Under the pieces are notes generated by a model, which did not search any database, was not told the DNA's origin, and was given only the letters and a program-made list of their open reading frames with translations. A stretch of DNA of 64,000 nucleotides from Halorussus sp. MSC15.2 (GTDB lineage Archaea > Halobacteriota > Halobacteria > Halobacteriales > Haladaptataceae): NCBI RefSeq assembly GCF_010747475.1, contig NZ_VSLZ01000006.1:62001-126000 (forward strand), given 5' to 3'. Of this stretch, positions 4,547 to 19,536 are shown one piece after another. The number at the start of each line of letters is the position of its first letter. Position 1 is the stretch's first letter. Made by a program: the position numbers and the translations under genes.

Positions 4547-5745
4547 TTAGACCGCGTCTTCCTTGTCGAGTTCGTTGCACGCCTCGAAGACGACGTCGGG
4601 TTCCATGTCGAGTTCGTGGGTGTAGTAGTAGCCTCCGCTCTGGCCTTTGTTCACTTCGTGACGGATGAGGAATCCGAGCATCTGGAGGTCGGAGAGGTGG
4701 TTCTGGATGCTCTTGAGCGTCGTGAGCGGGTCGTCGCCGCGTTCGTCGGCGATACGCTGGTAGGTCTTCATCACGTCTTTCGTCCGAACGGGCGTGTCGC
4801 CGTTGTGTTCGATGTGCGCCACGGCTTCGAGGACGTGTCGAGCGTGTAACGACTGGTCGGCGATTTTGTCGCGGAGACGGCCGCGTTTCACCTCTTCGCG
4901 GGCGCGGTCGATGTGGTCGTCTTCGATAGTCGTCGCGTCTTCGCGTTCGGCTATCTCCCCGCCCTTCCGGAGCAGGTCGATGGCCTGCCGGGCGCTCCCC
5001 GTGTCTTGAGCGGCGAGCGCGGCGGCTTTCCCGACCGCACCGTCGGTGTAGCCGTCGTCGACGAGCGCTTTCTCGGCGCGGTCGTAGAGAATCGTCCGGA
5101 GTTCAGTCGCGTCGTACGTCGAGAACGATATCTCCTCCTCGCGGAGAGTATCTTTGACTTTCGAGGAGAGCTGATTTCGAAAGGTGTAGTTGTTACTGAT
5201 ACCGATGACGCCGATTCTGGCCGCGTCGAGGTGTCCGTTCGCTCGCGCTCGCGGGAGTTCGTACAGCAGGTCGTCGGCTTCGGCGAGGTGGTCGATTTCG
5301 TCGAGGACGAGAGGTGAGTACCGCCGACGCGTTCTAACTGCGCGTACAGTTCTTCGCGGGCGTCGGCAGTCGATAACCCCTTCTTCGGAAACTGTTTCTC
5401 GTCTTCGGGCAGGAGTTGATTGACGAGAGAGCGGACTGCCGAGAACACGGTGTCGTCGTTGCAGTTGTGTCGATGGACGTAGAGGGTGTCGGCCTGCTCG
5501 CGTTCGCGGGTTGCTTGTTGGAGTTCGTCGAGGACGTACGTGGTAACTGCGGTCTTGCCCACGCCCGCTTTGCCGTAGAGCATCACGTTCGATGGGTTTC
5601 GACCGAAGAGGACGTCTTTCAGTGCGTCTTTGTACTCCTCAATTTCGTCTTCTCGTTCGAGGATGGTGTCTGGTTCGTACTCCTCTTCCAGTACGGTCTT
5701 GTTTGCGAAGAGGGTTTCAGTTACCTCGTCGAACAGCCCGGCCAT
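4547..5745 (-). pseudogene. orc1/cdc6: Orc1/Cdc6 replication initiator, split by one frameshift near 5314
   Basis: The ATG at 5745 opens a ~400-residue AAA+ initiator that binds origin repeats and loads MCM. Walker A (GKAGVGKTA, residues 58-66) lies in the first frame. Just after LYAQLERVGG the frame changes, and the alternative frame continues with Walker B (LVLDEIDHL), sensor 1 (GVIGISNNY), sensor 2 (GSARQAIDLL) and the winged-helix domain to the stop at 4547. All motifs are therefore present but in two frames. Restoring a C in CACCTC to give CACCCTC repairs the gene. The gene faces away from a repeat-rich intergenic region, the usual arrangement for a haloarchaeal origin and its cognate initiator. 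An upstream start would add about ten poorly supported residues. Confidence 0.9.
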
Positions 5746-5828
5746 GAGTATAGATGGACATTTCTTTCCTCCCACATAAAGGTACGGTTCGAGTGTTTCG
5801 ATTGTTCGTTTTCTATAAGTAGTATAGA

Positions 5829-5936: not shown

Positions 5937-6572
5937 AGACATTCGAAACGTACTCTCTTTGCTCGCGGTAGAATCGGTTCCTCCGCTTCGCACCTCATCC
6001 TCGAATGGAACACTCGAAATGTACTCTCTCTTTCTCTATCTTCCCACTCCTTCTTTACCTGTAAGTCCATTTTCCACTTCTGTCCGCCTTCTTTCTTCTT
6101 CTGCTTCTCTGTTCTTCTGCTCTTCAATACTTCCATTTCTCAATACCTCCATCTCTCCATCCCTATATTCCCCCATTCTTCTATCCTGTCACTCCTCCAT
6201 CCCTCAACTTCTTCACTCCTTCAACCCGCTACCCTTGGTCGAACAACGACTTCTCTGAACACTCGAAACGTACTGTCTCTCTTCGAGTGATGGACTGGCC
6301 GCTAAGTGGTCGTCTCTGAACACTCGAAACGTACTGTCTGTCTCCCCCTACGAGAATCCGTACGACTGGAATCCGTGTAAGTCGAGAACCATTCGTCGTG
6401 GAACACTCGAAATGTACTCTCTGTCTCTCCTCGCCTGCAGAGCTACCACCCACCACGACCTGAACACTCGAAACGTACTGTCTGTCCGTGGCCCGGACTC
6501 GACCCCACGCAAAGTTCGACAGACGAGTTCGACCGGCGTCGCGACACCACGGAACACTCGAAACGTACTCTC
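5937..6572 (+). repeat. Seven direct ORB-like repeats
   Basis: Copies of a 21-bp motif with core CACTCGAAAYGTACT start at 5937, 6008, 6257, 6318, 6401, 6462 and 6552. The first differs at its 5' end; the others are nearly identical, varying only at the C/T in AAAYGT and the C/G in ACTSTC. Spacing is irregular (61-249 bp), so this is not a CRISPR array. The location beside orc1/cdc6 suggests initiator binding sites. The sequence differs from the box I remember for main haloarchaeal oriC1, which suggests a replicon-specific specificity. Confidence 0.85.
6020..6240 (+). repeat. Polypyrimidine low-complexity tract
   Basis: About 220 bp of the plus strand are overwhelmingly C and T, with many CTTC, TTCT and CATC units and very few G. 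It lies between the second and third direct repeats. Such strand asymmetry can favour unusual DNA structure or protein binding. Translated frames here are low-complexity and are not genes. Confidence 0.7.
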
Positions 6573-6667
6573 CCGCGAGAATATCCCCCCAGCGTTCGAG
6601 CACCTCGTCTAAGCCTCCGTAAATTGGTACTCGAACCGACTTTGCTACACGATGGCGCTCTCGTGGT

Positions 6668-7630
6668 TTAGTGGATGCCCATGGCTTCGATTTGTTCCTG
6701 ATACCGGTTCCGTATCGTGACCTCGGTGACTTGGGCTACGTCGGCGACCTCGCGTTGGGTCTGCTTCTCGTTACAGAGCAGCGACGCGGCGTAGATTGCG
6801 GCGGCGGCGAACCCCGTCGGCGACTTCCCCGAGAGCAGGCCCTGTTCGGCGGTCTTGTCGATGATTTCGTTCGCCTTCATCTTGACCTCCTCGCTGACGC
6901 CGAGTTCGGAGGTGAACCGTGGTACGTACTCCTTGGGGTCGACCGGTTCCATCTTGAGGCTGAGTTCCTTCGAGACGTATCGATACGTTCGACCGATTTC
7001 CTTCTGCTCGACCCGGGATACCTCGGATACTTCCTCCAGACTCCGCGGGATGCCCTCTTGGCGGCACGCAGCGTAGAGGCAACTCGTGGCGACGCCCTCG
7101 ATGGACCGACCGCGAATCAGGTCCTCGTTGAGCGCCCGCCGATAGATGACCGACGCCACCTCTCGGACCGACCGCGGGACGCCGAGCGCCGAGGCCATGC
7201 GGTCGATTTCGCTGAGTGCGAACTGGAGATTACGCTCGCCCGCGTCCTTCGTCCGGATACGCTCCTGCCACTTTCGCAGGCGACTCATCTGACTCCGCTT
7301 CTCCGAGGAGAGCGACCGACCGTAGGCGTCCTTGTTCTTCCAGTCGATTTGAGTCGTCAGGCCCTTGTCGTGCATCGTATTGGTGGTGGGCGCACCGACT
7401 CGACTCTTGCTCTGGCGTTCGCTGTGGTTGAACGCGCGCCACTCCGGCCCCCGGTCGATGGTCTGTTCCTCGAGGACGAGACCGCAGTCCTCACAGACAA
7501 TCTCGTTGCCATCCCCGCTCGTAACGAGACTGTCCGAGTTACACTCCGGACAAGACTGCGTTTCCGTTTCACCCTCCTCTTCAGAGGTGCGTTCTTCCTC
7601 GCTCTCTTGTTGGCGATTCAGGCGAACCAT
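6668..7630 (-). CDS. tfb: Transcription initiation factor IIB (TFB)
   Basis: This 320-residue protein bridges TBP and RNA polymerase at archaeal promoters and recognises the BRE. An N-terminal zinc ribbon has cysteines at 27, 30, 46 and 49 (CPEC...CEDCG). It is followed by the B-linker region ([12 protein letters not shown]) and two cyclin folds, each with the usual IYAA or LYAACRQ-type core, ending in a recognition helix ([19 protein letters not shown]). Length and domain order are normal. Haloarchaea carry several tfb paralogs with different promoter preferences; which one this is cannot be told from sequence alone. An AT-rich box about 31-40 bp upstream of the ATG fits a leaderless transcript. 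It sits beside the putative origin. Confidence 0.96.
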
Positions 7631-7832: not shown

Positions 7833-7879
7833 TCACTAAGAAACAAATTAAAGTAGATATGTTGTGATATAGAAATGCG

Positions 7880-8500
7880 ATGCAAGAAAATAGCGAAACG
7901 AACACGACGCGACGCGACGTACTGAAGCGCGCCGCCACGGCCGGTGTCGTCGGTCTCGGTGGCACTGCACTGGCGAGCGGTACCGCAGCGGCGAAGCCAG
8001 CCGTCGATTGGGAACCGGCAGATTCGAGCAACTTCACGGCAGCGGACCGCGGCGCTGGCAAGATAGACTGGATTGTCATCCACACCGTACAGGGGTCGGC
8101 CAGTAGTGCGGTCAACTGGTTCCAGAACCCCGACGCCAACGTGAGTGCCCATTACACCGTCTCCGAAGGCGGCCACAAGTACCAGAGCGTCAGCGACATC
8201 AACATCGCGTGGCACGCGGGCGGGTCGAACTACAACACGTACTCGGTCGGCATCGAACACGGCGGGTACGTCAGTGAGACCTACGAGGACGCGCAGTACC
8301 GGGCGTCGGCCAAACTCACCAGTTGGCTCTGCGACCAGTACGGGGTCCCGAAGCAGCACCCGTCGAGCGTCCCGTACGACGCGAAGAACCCGGCTAACGG
8401 CGGTGTCATCGCCCACTCTCAGGTCCCCGAAAGCACGCACACCGACCCCGGCGCTAACTGGGACTGGGGCTACTACATGGACCTCGTCCGGTCGTACTGA
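7880..8500 (+). CDS. Tat-exported N-acetylmuramoyl-L-alanine amidase-like protein (Amidase_2/PGRP fold)
   Basis: This 206-residue protein has a twin-arginine signal (TTRRDVLKRAATAG, residues 9-22, then a short hydrophobic stretch ending near ASGTAAA), so it should be exported folded. The mature part reads as an Amidase_2 domain. IVIHT supplies the first zinc histidine (H68), and AHSQVPESTHTDPG supplies H179 and D189, matching the GHSD...KTDPG pattern of bacterial amidases and PGRPs. GIEHGG and the WHAGGSNYNTYSVG block are also family-typical. Such enzymes cleave the amide between MurNAc and L-Ala. Haloarchaea have no murein, so a bacterial wall or a related amide is the likely target. No wall-binding domain is present. 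An isolated gene with its own AT-rich promoter suggests single-gene expression. Confidence 0.88.
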   Translation: MQENSETNTTRRDVLKRAATAGVVGLGGTALASGTAAAKPAVDWEPADSSNFTAADRGAGKIDWIVIHTVQGSASSAVNWFQNPDANVSAHYTVSEGGHKYQSVSDINIAWHAGGSNYNTYSVGIEHGGYVSETYEDAQYRASAKLTSWLCDQYGVPKQHPSSVPYDAKNPANGGVIAHSQVPESTHTDPGANWDWGYYMDLVRSY

Positions 8501-8865: not shown

Positions 8866-10821
8866 ATGAATTCTACGGACGAACTGCTAGACACGGCCCA
8901 CCTCTCGGTCGAGAACGTCGGCGGTATCGCGGAGACGGAACTCACCTTCCGTCGCGGGGTAAACGTTCTCACCGGCCGTAACGCGACGAACCGTACGTCG
9001 TCGCTTCAGGCACTCATGGCCGTTCTCGGTAGCGACAGGGCGACTCTGAAGGCCGACGCCGAGCGCGGGCACGTGGAACTCACTATCGGCGACGACACGT
9101 ACACGCGGACGCTTACGCGGACCGATGGCGACGTGGTCATGACGGGCGAACCACTGGCAGATACCTCCGTCCTCTCGGACCTCTACGCGTTCTTGCTGGA
9201 GAACAACGAGTCGCGGCGCGCGGTCGCGCGGGGCGACGACCTTCGAGAGGTCATCATGCGGCCGGTCGATACCGACGAGATACAGGCCGAAATCGACAGA
9301 CTCGAACGGGAGAAACGCCGACTCACCGACGACCTCGAATCGCTCTCCGACCTCGAACGGCGACTGCCCAAACTCGTCGAGGAGGAGACGCGCCTGGAAC
9401 GCGAACTCGAAGAGACCAGCGAGCAACTCGAAGTGAAGAAGGCCGAAATCGACGCTTCGAACGCAGACATCGAGGAGACCCGCGCGGAGAAAGACGAGTT
9501 GGAAGCGAAACTGGAGGAGTTACAGGCCGTCCGGTCGTCGCTCGAAGACACCCGCCACGACATCGAGACCAACCGCGAGAGCATCGAGCGTCTCCGCGAG
9601 GAACTCGACGAGTATCGAGAGCGCAAGGAACAACTGCCCGCCGCACCGGCCGAGCGAATCGACGAACTCGACGCGGAGATAGACCGACTTCGACGACGGA
9701 AACGGGACCTCGAATCCGACATCACCCAACTGCAGAGTATCATCCAGTTCAACCAAGATATGCTGGACGACTACGAGTCGGACGTTCTCGAAACGCTCGG
9801 TGATACTGGTGCGGCGAGCGACGACGGTGTGACCGACCAACTGCTCGGCGACCGTCAGGAAGTCACCTGTTGGACGTGCGGGAGCGCCGTCGAACGCGAC
9901 CAGATAGACTCGACGACCGAGCAGATACGGGAGTTCCAATCGACGAAACGCGACGACCGTCGCGAACTCGAAACCCGGATTTCGGAACTCGTCTCGGAAC
10001 GTGATGAACTGAAAGACCGATTGCAGACACGCGAACGACTGGAGAACCAAATCGAGGAGTCGGAGTCCGAACTCGCGGACCGCGAAGAGCGTGTCGAGGA
10101 ACTCCGAATCGAACGCGAGGGTCTCGAATCGGAACTCACGACGCTGAACGACGAAGTGGAGTCGCTGCGGAGCGAAGACTACGACGAGATTCTGGACCTC
10201 CACCGTGAAGCGAACGAACTCGAATTCGAGTGCGACCGCCTGAGAGACGAGCTATCGGAGGTCCGCGAGGAGATAGCGCAGGTCGAGAGCCAACTCGACG
10301 AACGGGAGTCGCTCGAAGCGGAGCGAGACGAAATCGACGCGGACCTCGAAGAGCTTCGGACCCGGGTCTCCCGCATCGAACGGGAGGCCGTCGAAGCGTT
10401 CAACCGGCACATGGAGGAACTGCTCGACGTTCTCGACTACTCGAACCTCGACCGCATCTGGCTCGAACGGACCGAGACCGACGTCCGCGAGGGACGGCGG
10501 ACGGTCTCGAAGACGACGTTCGACCTCCACGTCGTTCGTAGCACCGAGTCGGGCACCGCCTACGAGGACACCATCGACCATCTGAGCGAGAGCGAGCGCG
10601 AGGTGACTGGTCTCGTGTTCGCGCTCGCCGGATTCCTCGTCCACGACGTTCACGAACGAATTTCGTTCATGCTGTTAGACTCACTGGAGGCAATCGACTC
10701 CGAGCGCATCGCAGCGCTCGTCGAGTACTTCGAGTCCTACGTCGATTACGTGGTCGTCGCCCTCCTCCCCGAGGACGCCGACGCGCTCCCGGACGATTAC
10801 GAGCGACTCACCGACATTTAG
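8866..10821 (+). CDS. Archaea-specific SMC-related protein (Sph-type), RdfA-associated
   Basis: A 651-residue ABC-ATPase of SMC/Rad50 layout: an N-terminal head half, a long coiled coil (about 130-320), a zinc-hook-like CWTCG (C335, C338), a returning coil (about 350-500), and a C-terminal head half with an LSESEREVTGLVFALAG signature and a FMLLDSLEAID Walker B. The P-loop reads GRNATNRTS, with arginine where lysine is canonical. As I recall, that is typical of this haloarchaeal subfamily, but ATPase behaviour cannot be assumed. In Haloferax volcanii a related SMC-like gene neighbours rdfA, a rod-shape determinant. Here rdfA lies 0.9 kb away with one membrane protein between. Roles in chromosome organisation or cell shape are inferred. 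Confidence 0.88.
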   Translation: MNSTDELLDTAHLSVENVGGIAETELTFRRGVNVLTGRNATNRTSSLQALMAVLGSDRATLKADAERGHVELTIGDDTYTRTLTRTDGDVVMTGEPLADTSVLSDLYAFLLENNESRRAVARGDDLREVIMRPVDTDEIQAEIDRLEREKRRLTDDLESLSDLERRLPKLVEEETRLERELEETSEQLEVKKAEIDASNADIEETRAEKDELEAKLEELQAVRSSLEDTRHDIETNRESIERLREELDEYRERKEQLPAAPAERIDELDAEIDRLRRRKRDLESDITQLQSIIQFNQDMLDDYESDVLETLGDTGAASDDGVTDQLLGDRQEVTCWTCGSAVERDQIDSTTEQIREFQSTKRDDRRELETRISELVSERDELKDRLQTRERLENQIEESESELADREERVEELRIEREGLESELTTLNDEVESLRSEDYDEILDLHREANELEFECDRLRDELSEVREEIAQVESQLDERESLEAERDEIDADLEELRTRVSRIEREAVEAFNRHMEELLDVLDYSNLDRIWLERTETDVREGRRTVSKTTFDLHVVRSTESGTAYEDTIDHLSESEREVTGLVFALAGFLVHDVHERISFMLLDSLEAIDSERIAALVEYFESYVDYVVVALLPEDADALPDDYERLTDI

Positions 10822-16198: not shown

Positions 16199-18320
16199 TT
16201 ACCGAGTCCGGACCAGCGCGTCCACCACCGCGACCCCCGACTCGCGAACCAGCACCGGGTTGAGGTCGAGTTCGTCGAGCGACTCGCACTCCGCCGCGAA
16301 GTCGCCGACGCGAGCGAGGAGTTCGGCCAGCGCGCTCGCGTCGCCGTCAGACTGCGCCAAGAGCGCGTCGAGGCGCGTCTCAGCGATAGCCTCCGTCGCC
16401 TCCGCCGCCGTGAACGGCGGAACCAGCAACGCCCGCTCGTCGAACTGCTCGACGAGCGTCCCGCCCGGTCCCACCGCGACGAGCGGGCCGAACTCGGGGT
16501 CGGTAGAGACCCCCGCCAGCGCCTCCACGCCGTCTTCGACCTGTGACTGGACGAGCACGCCCTCTATCTCGGCGTCGGGGACCGCCTCGCGGACGCTCGA
16601 CAGTATCTCCTCGTAGGCGTCGCGGGCGTCGGCCGCGCTTCGCACGTCGGTCCGGACGCCGCCGACCGTGGACCGGTGAGGGACGTCGGCCGAATCGACC
16701 TTGAGGACGACCGGGAAACCGAGGTCCGACGCGACCGTCGCCGCCTCCTCGGGTCCCTCGACGAGTCGCGTCTCGACGGTCTCGATGTCGAACGCCGAGA
16801 GGAGGTCGGCGGACTCGCGCCACGTCAAGGTCCGTCCCGACGGCACCTCGACGTCGCGCCGGTCACTCTCGGACCGCCGGTAGTTCCGCGATGGCCGGTC
16901 CGCGAGTCGGTCCCGGTTCGACCCGAACTCGACCAGCGAGGCGAGCGCGTCCATGCACCGACCGGGGTCGTAGAACAGCGGTACCTCCTCGCGAACTCGC
17001 TCGTAGGGCTGGGGGTCGTCGAGTTCGTCGGGGTCCTTGCGGCCGGTCCAGAGGAAGAGGACGGGGTCGTCCGCGGCGTCGGCGACCGCGAGCAGGTCGT
17101 CGGCGATGTCCTCGGCGCGTTCGTCCACCGCCGAGAGACCGACCGCGAACACGTAGGCGTCGTACGCGTCGTCGCCGAACAGGGCGTCGGCGATTTCGGG
17201 GAGGTGGTCCGCGCCGTAGCCTCTGATGTCCACGGGGTTGTGGAGTTCGCCGAAGGTCAACAGCCCCTCCATGTCGAGCAGTCGGCGCTCGGTGTCCCCC
17301 TCCAAGGGGGGGCACGTCGAGGCCGCGTTCGCTCGCCATGTCCGCGAGCAGACTCGCCAGTCCGCCGCTCGTGGAGGCGACGCACACCCGGTTCGACTTC
17401 GGCGGGTCGAACGCCGCGTGAGCGCTCGCACGCCCGAGCAGGTCGGGGATGTCCGGCACCTGCTGGACACCGACCTGCTCGCAGACGGCGTCCCAAGCTT
17501 CGTCGGTGCCGACCAGCGACCCCGTGTGGGACATGGCCGCGCTCTCGGCCGCGTCTGACCCGCCTATCTTGACCGCGAGGACCGGCGTTCCCCCGCGGAC
17601 GGCGGACTCGGCCGCCTCCATGAATCGTCGGGGCCGGTCGAGTCCCTCGACGTACGCGCAGATGACGTCCACCGCTGGGTCGGCCGCCATGTACTCGACG
17701 TAGTCTGTGAGCGTCTGGTCGGCCTCGTTGCCGGTCGAGACGATGTGCGAGAACGCGAGGTCCTCGTCGGCGGCGCGCTCGAAGAAGGTCGTAAACGCCA
17801 GCGCCCCGGAGTGACTGACCAGTCCGACGTTCCCCGGTTCCGGCTTCCGTGAGCAGGTGCTGGTCAGCACCGTCCCCTCACGGGCGTTTGCCAGTCCGAT
17901 ACAGTTGGGACCGCACACCCGAACGTCGTGTTCGGCGGCCGCCTCGGCCAGTTCGGCCTGAAGCCGAGCGCCCTCGTCGTCGGCCTCCGCGAACCCCGCG
18001 GTGATGACGAGCGCGGCCGGGACGCCCATCTCGCCCGCTGCGGTCACCACGTCCACCACGTACTCCCGCGGCACGCTGACGACCGCCAAGTCCACGACCT
18101 CCGGCACGTCCGCGATGGTGTCGTAGCAGGTCCGGTCCCACGCCTCGTCGCGACTCGGATTAACCGGGTAGACCGTCCCGTCGTAGCCGTAGTCGAGGAG
18201 GTTGTCCATCAATTGTGAGGAGTACCACGAGTCGGGACTGGCCCCGACGACGGCCACCGACTCGGGCGCGAAAAGCGGGTCGAGGTCGGGCCGCTCGGGG
18301 TTCGCTCGGTCACTCGTCAC
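16199..18320 (-). pseudogene. acd-like: ADP-forming acetate/acyl-CoA ligase (fused alpha-beta), one frameshift near 17308
   Basis: Restored, this is a ~700-residue NDP-forming acyl-CoA synthetase converting acyl-CoA + ADP + Pi to acid + ATP + CoA, or the reverse. The N-terminal half has the CoA-binding fold (LFAPESVAVVGAS, VYPVNPSRDE, CGPNCIGLAN) and ligase-CoA domain (GLVSHSGALAFTTFFE; AMSHTGSLVGTDEAWDAV, with the phosphohistidine-type His). The C-terminal half is ATP-grasp (GFPVVLKVDSADVPHRSTVGGV; LDLNPVLV). The frame changes inside a run of seven C (minus strand) after LDVPP; six C restores LEGDTERRLLD. The start is GTG at 18320 (or 18329), overlapping the end of the CoA-transferase gene, so the two are probably co-translated. 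Confidence 0.88.
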
Positions 18321-19536
18321 CGCCAGCACCTCCGAACGCTCCGTCGGCGCGCCACTCGTCCAGCGTGGTCTGGTCGCCGGCGACGTCAGCGAACACCTCG
18401 TCGGTGTGTTCGCCCAGTCGAGGTGCGGGACTCCGAATCTCGGTCTCGAAGTCGGGGAAGTTGACCGGGTGGCCGGGGAGGACGACTTCGCCCCCGTCGG
18501 GGTCGTCGTGTTCTCGGACGAGTCCCCGCGCCTCCGCCTGCGGGTGGTCCACCACGTCGCCGACGTCGTTGAGCGGGCCGTTCGGGAACCCGTGTTCGGT
18601 CAGCGCCGAGAGCCAGTGGTCGGTCGAGCGCTTCGCGAACTCCTCCTGAATTATCGCGGTGACCGCCTCGGCGTTCGCGGCGCGCTCGTCGTTGGTCGGG
18701 TACTCCCGGAGTTCCTCGCGGCCGACGACGTCCACGAAGTCGTCCCACCGCTCGTCGCTCGGAACGCCGGTCACGACGTGCCCGTCGGCCGTCTCGAACA
18801 GTTGGTAGGGCACCAGCGACTGGTGGGAGGTCCCCTGCGGGCCGGGCACCTCGCCGGTCATCGAGTTGAAGGTCAGATACTCGTTCATCACGCTGACGAT
18901 GGCGTCGAAGAGGCCGACGTCGAACTTCCCGACGAACTCGCCGTCGTCGCCCCCGGTTCCGGCCCGCCGGTCGCGCTCGTGGAGTCGGGCCAGCACGGCG
19001 ATGGCGGCGAACATCCCCGCGCTCAGGTCGCCGATGGCCTGCCCGACCTTCACCGGGTCGCCGCCCTCGGGACCCGTCACGCTCATGATGCCGCCCTCCG
19101 CCTGCAGGATGAGGTCGAGACCCTTCTTCTCCTTGGACGGCCCCGTCTCGCCGTACCCCTTGATGGACGCGTAGATTATCTCCTCGTTCACCTCCCGGAC
19201 GTCCTCGTAGCCGATGCCGAGTTTGTCGGTGACGCCGTACCCGAAGTTCTCGACGAAGACGTCCGCGTCGGCGAGCAGGTCGAGGGCGGCCTCTCGCCCG
19301 GCGTCGGCCTTCAGGTCGAGCGTGACCGACTTCTTGTTCCGGTTGTTCGCCATGAAGTAGCCCGACTTGCCCGCCGGACCCGCCCCTTGGTCGCGGGCCG
19401 GGTCGCCGACGCCCGGTCGCTCGATTTTCACGACTTCCGCCCCGAGGTCGGCCAGCAGCGCCCCGCAGAAGGGTCCGGCACGGTGTGCAGTCATCTCTAC
19501 GACGGTCAGGTCCGACAGCGGCCCCTGCTTCGACAT
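18310..19536 (-). CDS. CaiB/BaiF-family (type III) CoA-transferase 1
   Basis: 408 residues. The N-terminal Rossmann-like block is PFCGALLADLGAEVVKIERP, followed by FMANNRNKKSVTLDLK and the IGDLSAGMFAA motif carrying the catalytic aspartate that forms the aspartyl-CoA intermediate. These intertwined dimers move CoA between carboxylic acids (formyl-CoA, succinyl-CoA, itaconate and malate are known substrates). The gene overlaps the downstream acyl-CoA ligase and is followed by the dehydrogenase and dehydratase, so it probably activates the acid this set degrades. The ATG at 19536 gives the family's usual N-terminus. Confidence 0.93.
   Translation of the reverse strand: MSKQGPLSDLTVVEMTAHRAGPFCGALLADLGAEVVKIERPGVGDPARDQGAGPAGKSGYFMANNRNKKSVTLDLKADAGREAALDLLADADVFVENFGYGVTDKLGIGYEDVREVNEEIIYASIKGYGETGPSKEKKGLDLILQAEGGIMSVTGPEGGDPVKVGQAIGDLSAGMFAAIAVLARLHERDRRAGTGGDDGEFVGKFDVGLFDAIVSVMNEYLTFNSMTGEVPGPQGTSHQSLVPYQLFETADGHVVTGVPSDERWDDFVDVVGREELREYPTNDERAANAEAVTAIIQEEFAKRSTDHWLSALTEHGFPNGPLNDVGDVVDHPQAEARGLVREHDDPDGGEVVLPGHPVNFPDFETEIRSPAPRLGEHTDEVFADVAGDQTTLDEWRADGAFGGAGGDE

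Follow-up and report, generated by a model that had tools for sequence, protein, structure and literature searches.

The amidase gene and its surroundings

The stretch of DNA analysed here (the window, 64,000 nucleotides) forms part of contig C6 (236,657 bases) in the 4.4 Mb draft genome of a Halorussus species, and carries a 206-residue open reading frame for a predicted secreted, single-domain N-acetylmuramoyl-L-alanine amidase (Table 1). The protein matches the Amidase_2 profile (PF01510) with an E value of 7.3e-31 and 107.7 bits (cut-off 26), as do all 31 members of homolog set A2, and after the Tat signal this is the sole catalytic or binding domain recognised in it. An earlier note on this DNA had described a clear twin-arginine signal and the lack of a wall-binding domain, and both descriptions hold. 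The TIGR01409 Tat signal domain scores 18.9 bits (cut-off 16.7); the motif TRRDVLK, a hydrophobic stretch and an AxA site before K39 are all present and predict export; there is no lipobox in the signal peptide. No PG_binding_1 protein was found anywhere in the host genome by the family searches from which all our genome-wide statements on this host derive.

Table 1. Features at and around the amidase gene, in window coordinates.
Feature	Position	Strand	Basis
Secreted single-domain N-acetylmuramoyl-L-alanine amidase (predicted), 206 aa	7880..8500	+	ORF, profile match, dN/dS, tree
Tat signal peptide, R11 R12, predicted cleavage after A38	7880..7993	+	TIGR01409 over cut-off; motif from sequence
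Amidase_2 catalytic domain, residues 60-191	8057..8452	+	Profile, AlphaFold model
H68, predicted zinc ligand	8081..8083	+	Invariant in homologs
E126, predicted catalytic glutamate (AmpD E116 position)	8255..8257	+	Invariant; AmpD alignment
H179, predicted zinc ligand (AmpD H154 position)	8414..8416	+	Invariant; AmpD alignment
D189, predicted zinc ligand (AmpD D164 position)	8444..8446	+	Asp in short forms, Asp/Cys in long; AmpD alignment
AATTAAAGT block, candidate archaeal promoter element	7846..7854	+	Conserved with ORF; promoter role inferred
Archaea-specific SMC-related protein gene, cluster-flanking landmark in H. aquaticus	8866..10821	+	93.6% nt identity to H. aquaticus copy
Transcription initiation factor B (TFB) gene, upstream neighbour, outside cluster	6668..7630	-	Gene match

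The assignment of H68, H179 and D189 as zinc ligands, also made in the earlier note, is borne out by conservation and by alignment with AmpD, and to these residues we add the previously unmentioned E126. H68, E126 and H179 are invariant across 13 single-domain and 16 longer haloarchaeal homologs, while D189 is Asp in all 13 single-domain proteins and Cys in 7 of the 16 longer ones. These seven long homologs (L022, L024, L025, L027 and L028 among them) thus carry Cys as the third zinc ligand, as does T7 lysozyme. Solved AmpD aligns with the C-terminal half of the protein, giving the equivalences listed in Table 1, and its K162 position is occupied by H187. We considered H187 as a sign of new chemistry and dropped the idea, the HTDPG motif being general in bacterial relatives. 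The AlphaFold model has a pLDDT above 90 over most of the domain, and its best match in the PDB is AmpD (E 6.5e-11, 23% identity), followed by endolysins and PGRPs.

Comparison of the window copy with its relatives gives dN/dS values of 0.10-0.22, and from these alignments the gene is under purifying selection. The AATTAAAGT block is centred about 30 nt before the ATG and is kept in the window, Halorussus limi, H. aquaticus, H. vallis and Haladaptatus halobius, with its last base altered in H. salinisoli; the surrounding DNA diverges between copies while the block stays with the ORF, and its position fits a leaderless haloarchaeal promoter. As far as sequence can establish it, the ORF is confirmed as an intact, conserved gene for an exported zinc amidase, its activity being predicted.

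Neighbours of the gene include those for TFB, the SMC-related protein and RdfA. The TFB gene, together with membership of one genus with H. vallis, supports an archaeal host. The SMC-related gene recurs with RdfA on Halorussus plasmids, and PADLOC matches its product weakly to LmuB and JetC, with a common coiled coil as the probable cause. Elsewhere in the window Cdc6/Orc1 lies in two frames (4547-5775; the AAA part versus the C-terminal winged helix), reflecting either a broken gene or an assembly error, and beside it are seven copies of a repeat near ACACTCGAAACGTACT (5939-6580) that could mark a replication origin. A gene of the acetate--CoA ligase family (16199-18329) is apparently split by a frameshift; on the plasmids of H. 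limi and H. aquaticus it is undivided.

Distribution of the family and the muropeptide cluster of its relatives

Homologs of the amidase occur in 51 of 392 Halobacteria genomes (13%). All haloarchaeal Amidase_2 sequences form one clade (support 99/99), inside which the single-domain forms are a clade of their own (98/99), while support among the long forms is weak. The long proteins share the active site of the window amidase and differ from it in their C-terminal domains, which are PG_binding_1-type repeats in L015, L027 and L030 and SH3_3 in L018 and L024 (tested with Pfam in L015, L018 and L024, and by sequence resemblance in the other long forms). With PG_binding_1 or SH3_3 domains present in the long relatives, having Amidase_2 alone characterises the single-domain subclade. 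The nearest bacterial sequences belong to the Thermoactinomycetaceae and Actinomycetota (Melghirimyces at 53%, Phytoactinopolyspora, Streptomyces); they have the HTDPG motif in common with the window amidase, but their frames are N-terminally longer, and immediately ahead of the domain they show no Tat leader of the haloarchaeal type.

The closest relatives, H. limi, H. aquaticus and H. vallis, carry an 85-91% identical ortholog on plasmids, inside a cluster of about 20 kb, where a HAD hydrolase and a serine hydrolase flank it. The cluster also contains a peptide-type ABC importer, an SDR, a GNAT, AnmK, NamZ, NagZ, a creatininase-like protein, two GH18 proteins and an IclR regulator. AnmK and NagZ exceed curated equivalog cut-offs, both Pfam halves of NamZ are matched, and the serine hydrolase is nearest to PBP4B with a score below cut-off. 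Twin-arginine leaders are present on the GH18 proteins and on none of AnmK, NamZ and NagZ. Two further arrangements were found: in genome G073 the amidase adjoins SDR and AnmK, and in archaeon YIM A00010 a 59% identical amidase stands beside GH18, IclR and NamZ. Linkage to NagZ, NamZ and uptake genes is whole or partial in these five, and absent in the window genome; the three arrangements suggest repeated association.

The AnmK-NamZ-NagZ-ABC importer cluster is present in about 4% of Halobacteria genomes (L032:103-22424 on the H. limi plasmid, and also L033, L035 and L049-L058). In some genomes it does not include the amidase, which then, where there is one, is encoded at another site. All these clusters include a protein (L032:13923-15098) that is called a “putative glycoside hydrolase” in one record and has no Pfam or NCBIfam match.

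Across the 392 genomes, 10 of the 15 with AnmK possess the amidase, against 13% overall (p 1.1e-6), and AnmK is found in 7 of the 13 genomes with a single-domain form (p 3.7e-8), both figures being uncorrected for shared ancestry. NamZ, found jointly with AnmK in 15 of 16 cases, is likewise enriched in amidase-bearing genomes, again uncorrected for shared ancestry. Stand-alone copies of the amidase occur in several genomes, and beyond muropeptide cluster genes and close-species synteny no recurrent partner, immunity gene or other, was found beside them. The earlier note also remarked on the lack of an obvious immunity gene, an absence that is uninformative either way.

The window genome itself has a single Amidase_2 protein, the copy described here. 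Family searches of this genome found neither AnmK nor NamZ, no muropeptide cluster was found elsewhere over the 236,657 bases of the contig, and the two host GH3 proteins (frames of about 820-880 aa) are unlike the 529-aa NagZ. The segment 8831-16000 of the window has a match at about 92% on the H. aquaticus plasmid, beginning with the SMC-related gene, which in H. aquaticus adjoins the muropeptide cluster and in the window directly adjoins the amidase (gap of about 365 nt). The simplest reading of this layout is that the cluster was lost around a retained amidase, the alternative being that the amidase moved independently. The H. limi counterpart of this SMC-related gene has different neighbours, and there the cluster lies next to a paralogue; the change may therefore have gone in either direction.

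Feeding, killing and other possible roles

The earlier note had stated that the archaeon lacks the substrate of its own enzyme, in agreement with our finding no penicillin-binding transpeptidase, and no MurC match over cut-off, in the host genome. We infer the enzyme activity, its substrate, the cellular location of each partner and the purpose: the main use of this amidase family is probably nutrition, through scavenging of extracellular peptidoglycan. We favour feeding on wall material because in the closest relatives the gene is surrounded by genes for muropeptide uptake and catabolism; as the window genome has no AnmK or NamZ and its GH3 proteins do not resemble NagZ, it is the relatives that carry the pathway argument.

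According to this proposal the amidase would fold in the cytoplasm and be exported by Tat into the brine, where it would cleave the MurNAc-L-alanine bond of bacterial peptidoglycan or wall fragments. Bacteria that are dead or dying would thereby yield stem peptides and bare glycan. Where relatives have the complete cluster, glycan cutting outside the cell would fall to the two Tat-signal GH18 enzymes, the peptide-type ABC importer would bring the fragments in, and the signal-less NamZ, NagZ, AnmK and PBP4B-like serine hydrolase would complete the breakdown inside. In the window genome, where AnmK and NamZ were lost or never present, chiefly the peptide part might be used. Against scavenging we count that 41 of the 51 amidase-bearing genomes lack AnmK and that in several cluster genomes (G274, G147, G123, G326 and G277) the cluster is found without the amidase, which is located elsewhere. 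We also count that no canonical MurQ matched over cut-off in the ten genomes tested (nine of them AnmK-positive), which leaves the end of the pathway unaccounted for. Tentatively, a set of haloarchaea may have a dedicated murein-eating pathway, with the exported single-domain amidase and GH18s outside, the ABC importer between, NamZ, NagZ and AnmK inside, and some unrecognised enzyme in the place of MurQ. Of this pathway the amidase would be the most mobile part and would survive alone in genomes like that of the window.

Attack on competitors was the idea put forward in the earlier note. It drew support from a precedent that does exist in print: Woldo and Danwoldo, two Tat-exported peptidoglycan hydrolases of haloarchaea, kill Halalkalibacterium halodurans (PMC12352652). 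Patchiness (51 of 392 genomes) and the plasmid location of the closest copies are, moreover, signs of conflict by the reasoning of that paper. The published killers, however, bear two PG_binding_1 domains, to which the selection of targets is ascribed, and the window amidase has none; its relatives sit among uptake and catabolism genes, and a patchy distribution equally fits an accessory feeding trait. That the secreted amidase is a dedicated weapon for lysing living halophilic bacterial competitors is possible but rather unlikely, and feeding is preferred to it. The same enzyme could serve both feeding and killing.

It is less probable still that the gene is a useless remnant of a deleted cluster. 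The missing AnmK and NamZ, the short distance to the SMC-related gene that bounds the H. aquaticus cluster and the broken Cdc6 gene nearby would all suit such a history, but nothing in the ORF, signal, catalytic residues or promoter block is damaged, and stand-alone amidases occur in several genomes. The dN/dS of the window copy to the cluster-borne H. limi and H. aquaticus copies (0.128) is, besides, not above that among the cluster copies (0.15-0.19). Recruitment of the fold to an archaeal amide, for example in a surface glycoprotein or peptide signal, would suit haloarchaea having no murein of their own, yet we regard it as very improbable given active-site residues of the peptidoglycan amidase type across haloarchaeal and bacterial relatives, the linkage to MurNAc-specific enzymes, and an occurrence in only 13% of Halobacteria.

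Three other identities were considered and set aside: a virus or provirus endolysin (best viral relatives at most 48% identical, neighbourhood non-viral), an AmpD-type cytoplasmic recycling enzyme (Tat signal; 59.7 bits to the AmpD equivalog against a cut-off of 143), and a component of a defence system (PADLOC gave no match to the amidase).

Relation to known peptidoglycan hydrolases and recycling systems

The window amidase is alike in fold, zinc ligands and glutamate to AmpD, AmpDh2, AmiD, XlyA and the T7-lysozyme/PGRP fold in general (PF01510). It differs from the AmpD group in being archaeal and predictedly Tat-exported, in having H187 for AmpD K162, and in the low identity of the structural match given above.

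With Woldo and Danwoldo it shares a haloarchaeal origin, a Tat signal and a bacterial murein substrate (predicted), but their catalytic domains are M23 and glucosaminidase, with two PG_binding_1 domains, whereas the window protein is a lone Amidase_2. The 2025 survey of archaeal wall hydrolases that describes them (PMC12352652) counted only proteins with a binding domain, which places a single-domain amidase outside it; it asked outright whether such enzymes kill or scavenge, and left scavenging possible. An amidase family that falls outside the survey definition and is tied to a catabolic cluster would allow a direct genetic test of killing versus scavenging in a culturable Halorussus. In the open-access literature we found no paper on MurNAc catabolism in haloarchaea.

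A close parallel to the haloarchaeal clusters is the muropeptide rescue cluster of B. subtilis, murQ-murR-murP-amiE-nagZ-ybbC (PMC5061867), which likewise brings together NagZ, a ybbC/NamZ-type protein, an N-acetylmuramoyl-L-alanine amidase and uptake genes. The haloarchaeal clusters differ from it in their ABC importer and AnmK and in that no MurQ was found in the ten genomes tested, and the window genome differs in being without the cluster. The murQ operon of E. coli, which includes PBP4B (PMC5061867), offers a further parallel to the haloarchaeal cluster.
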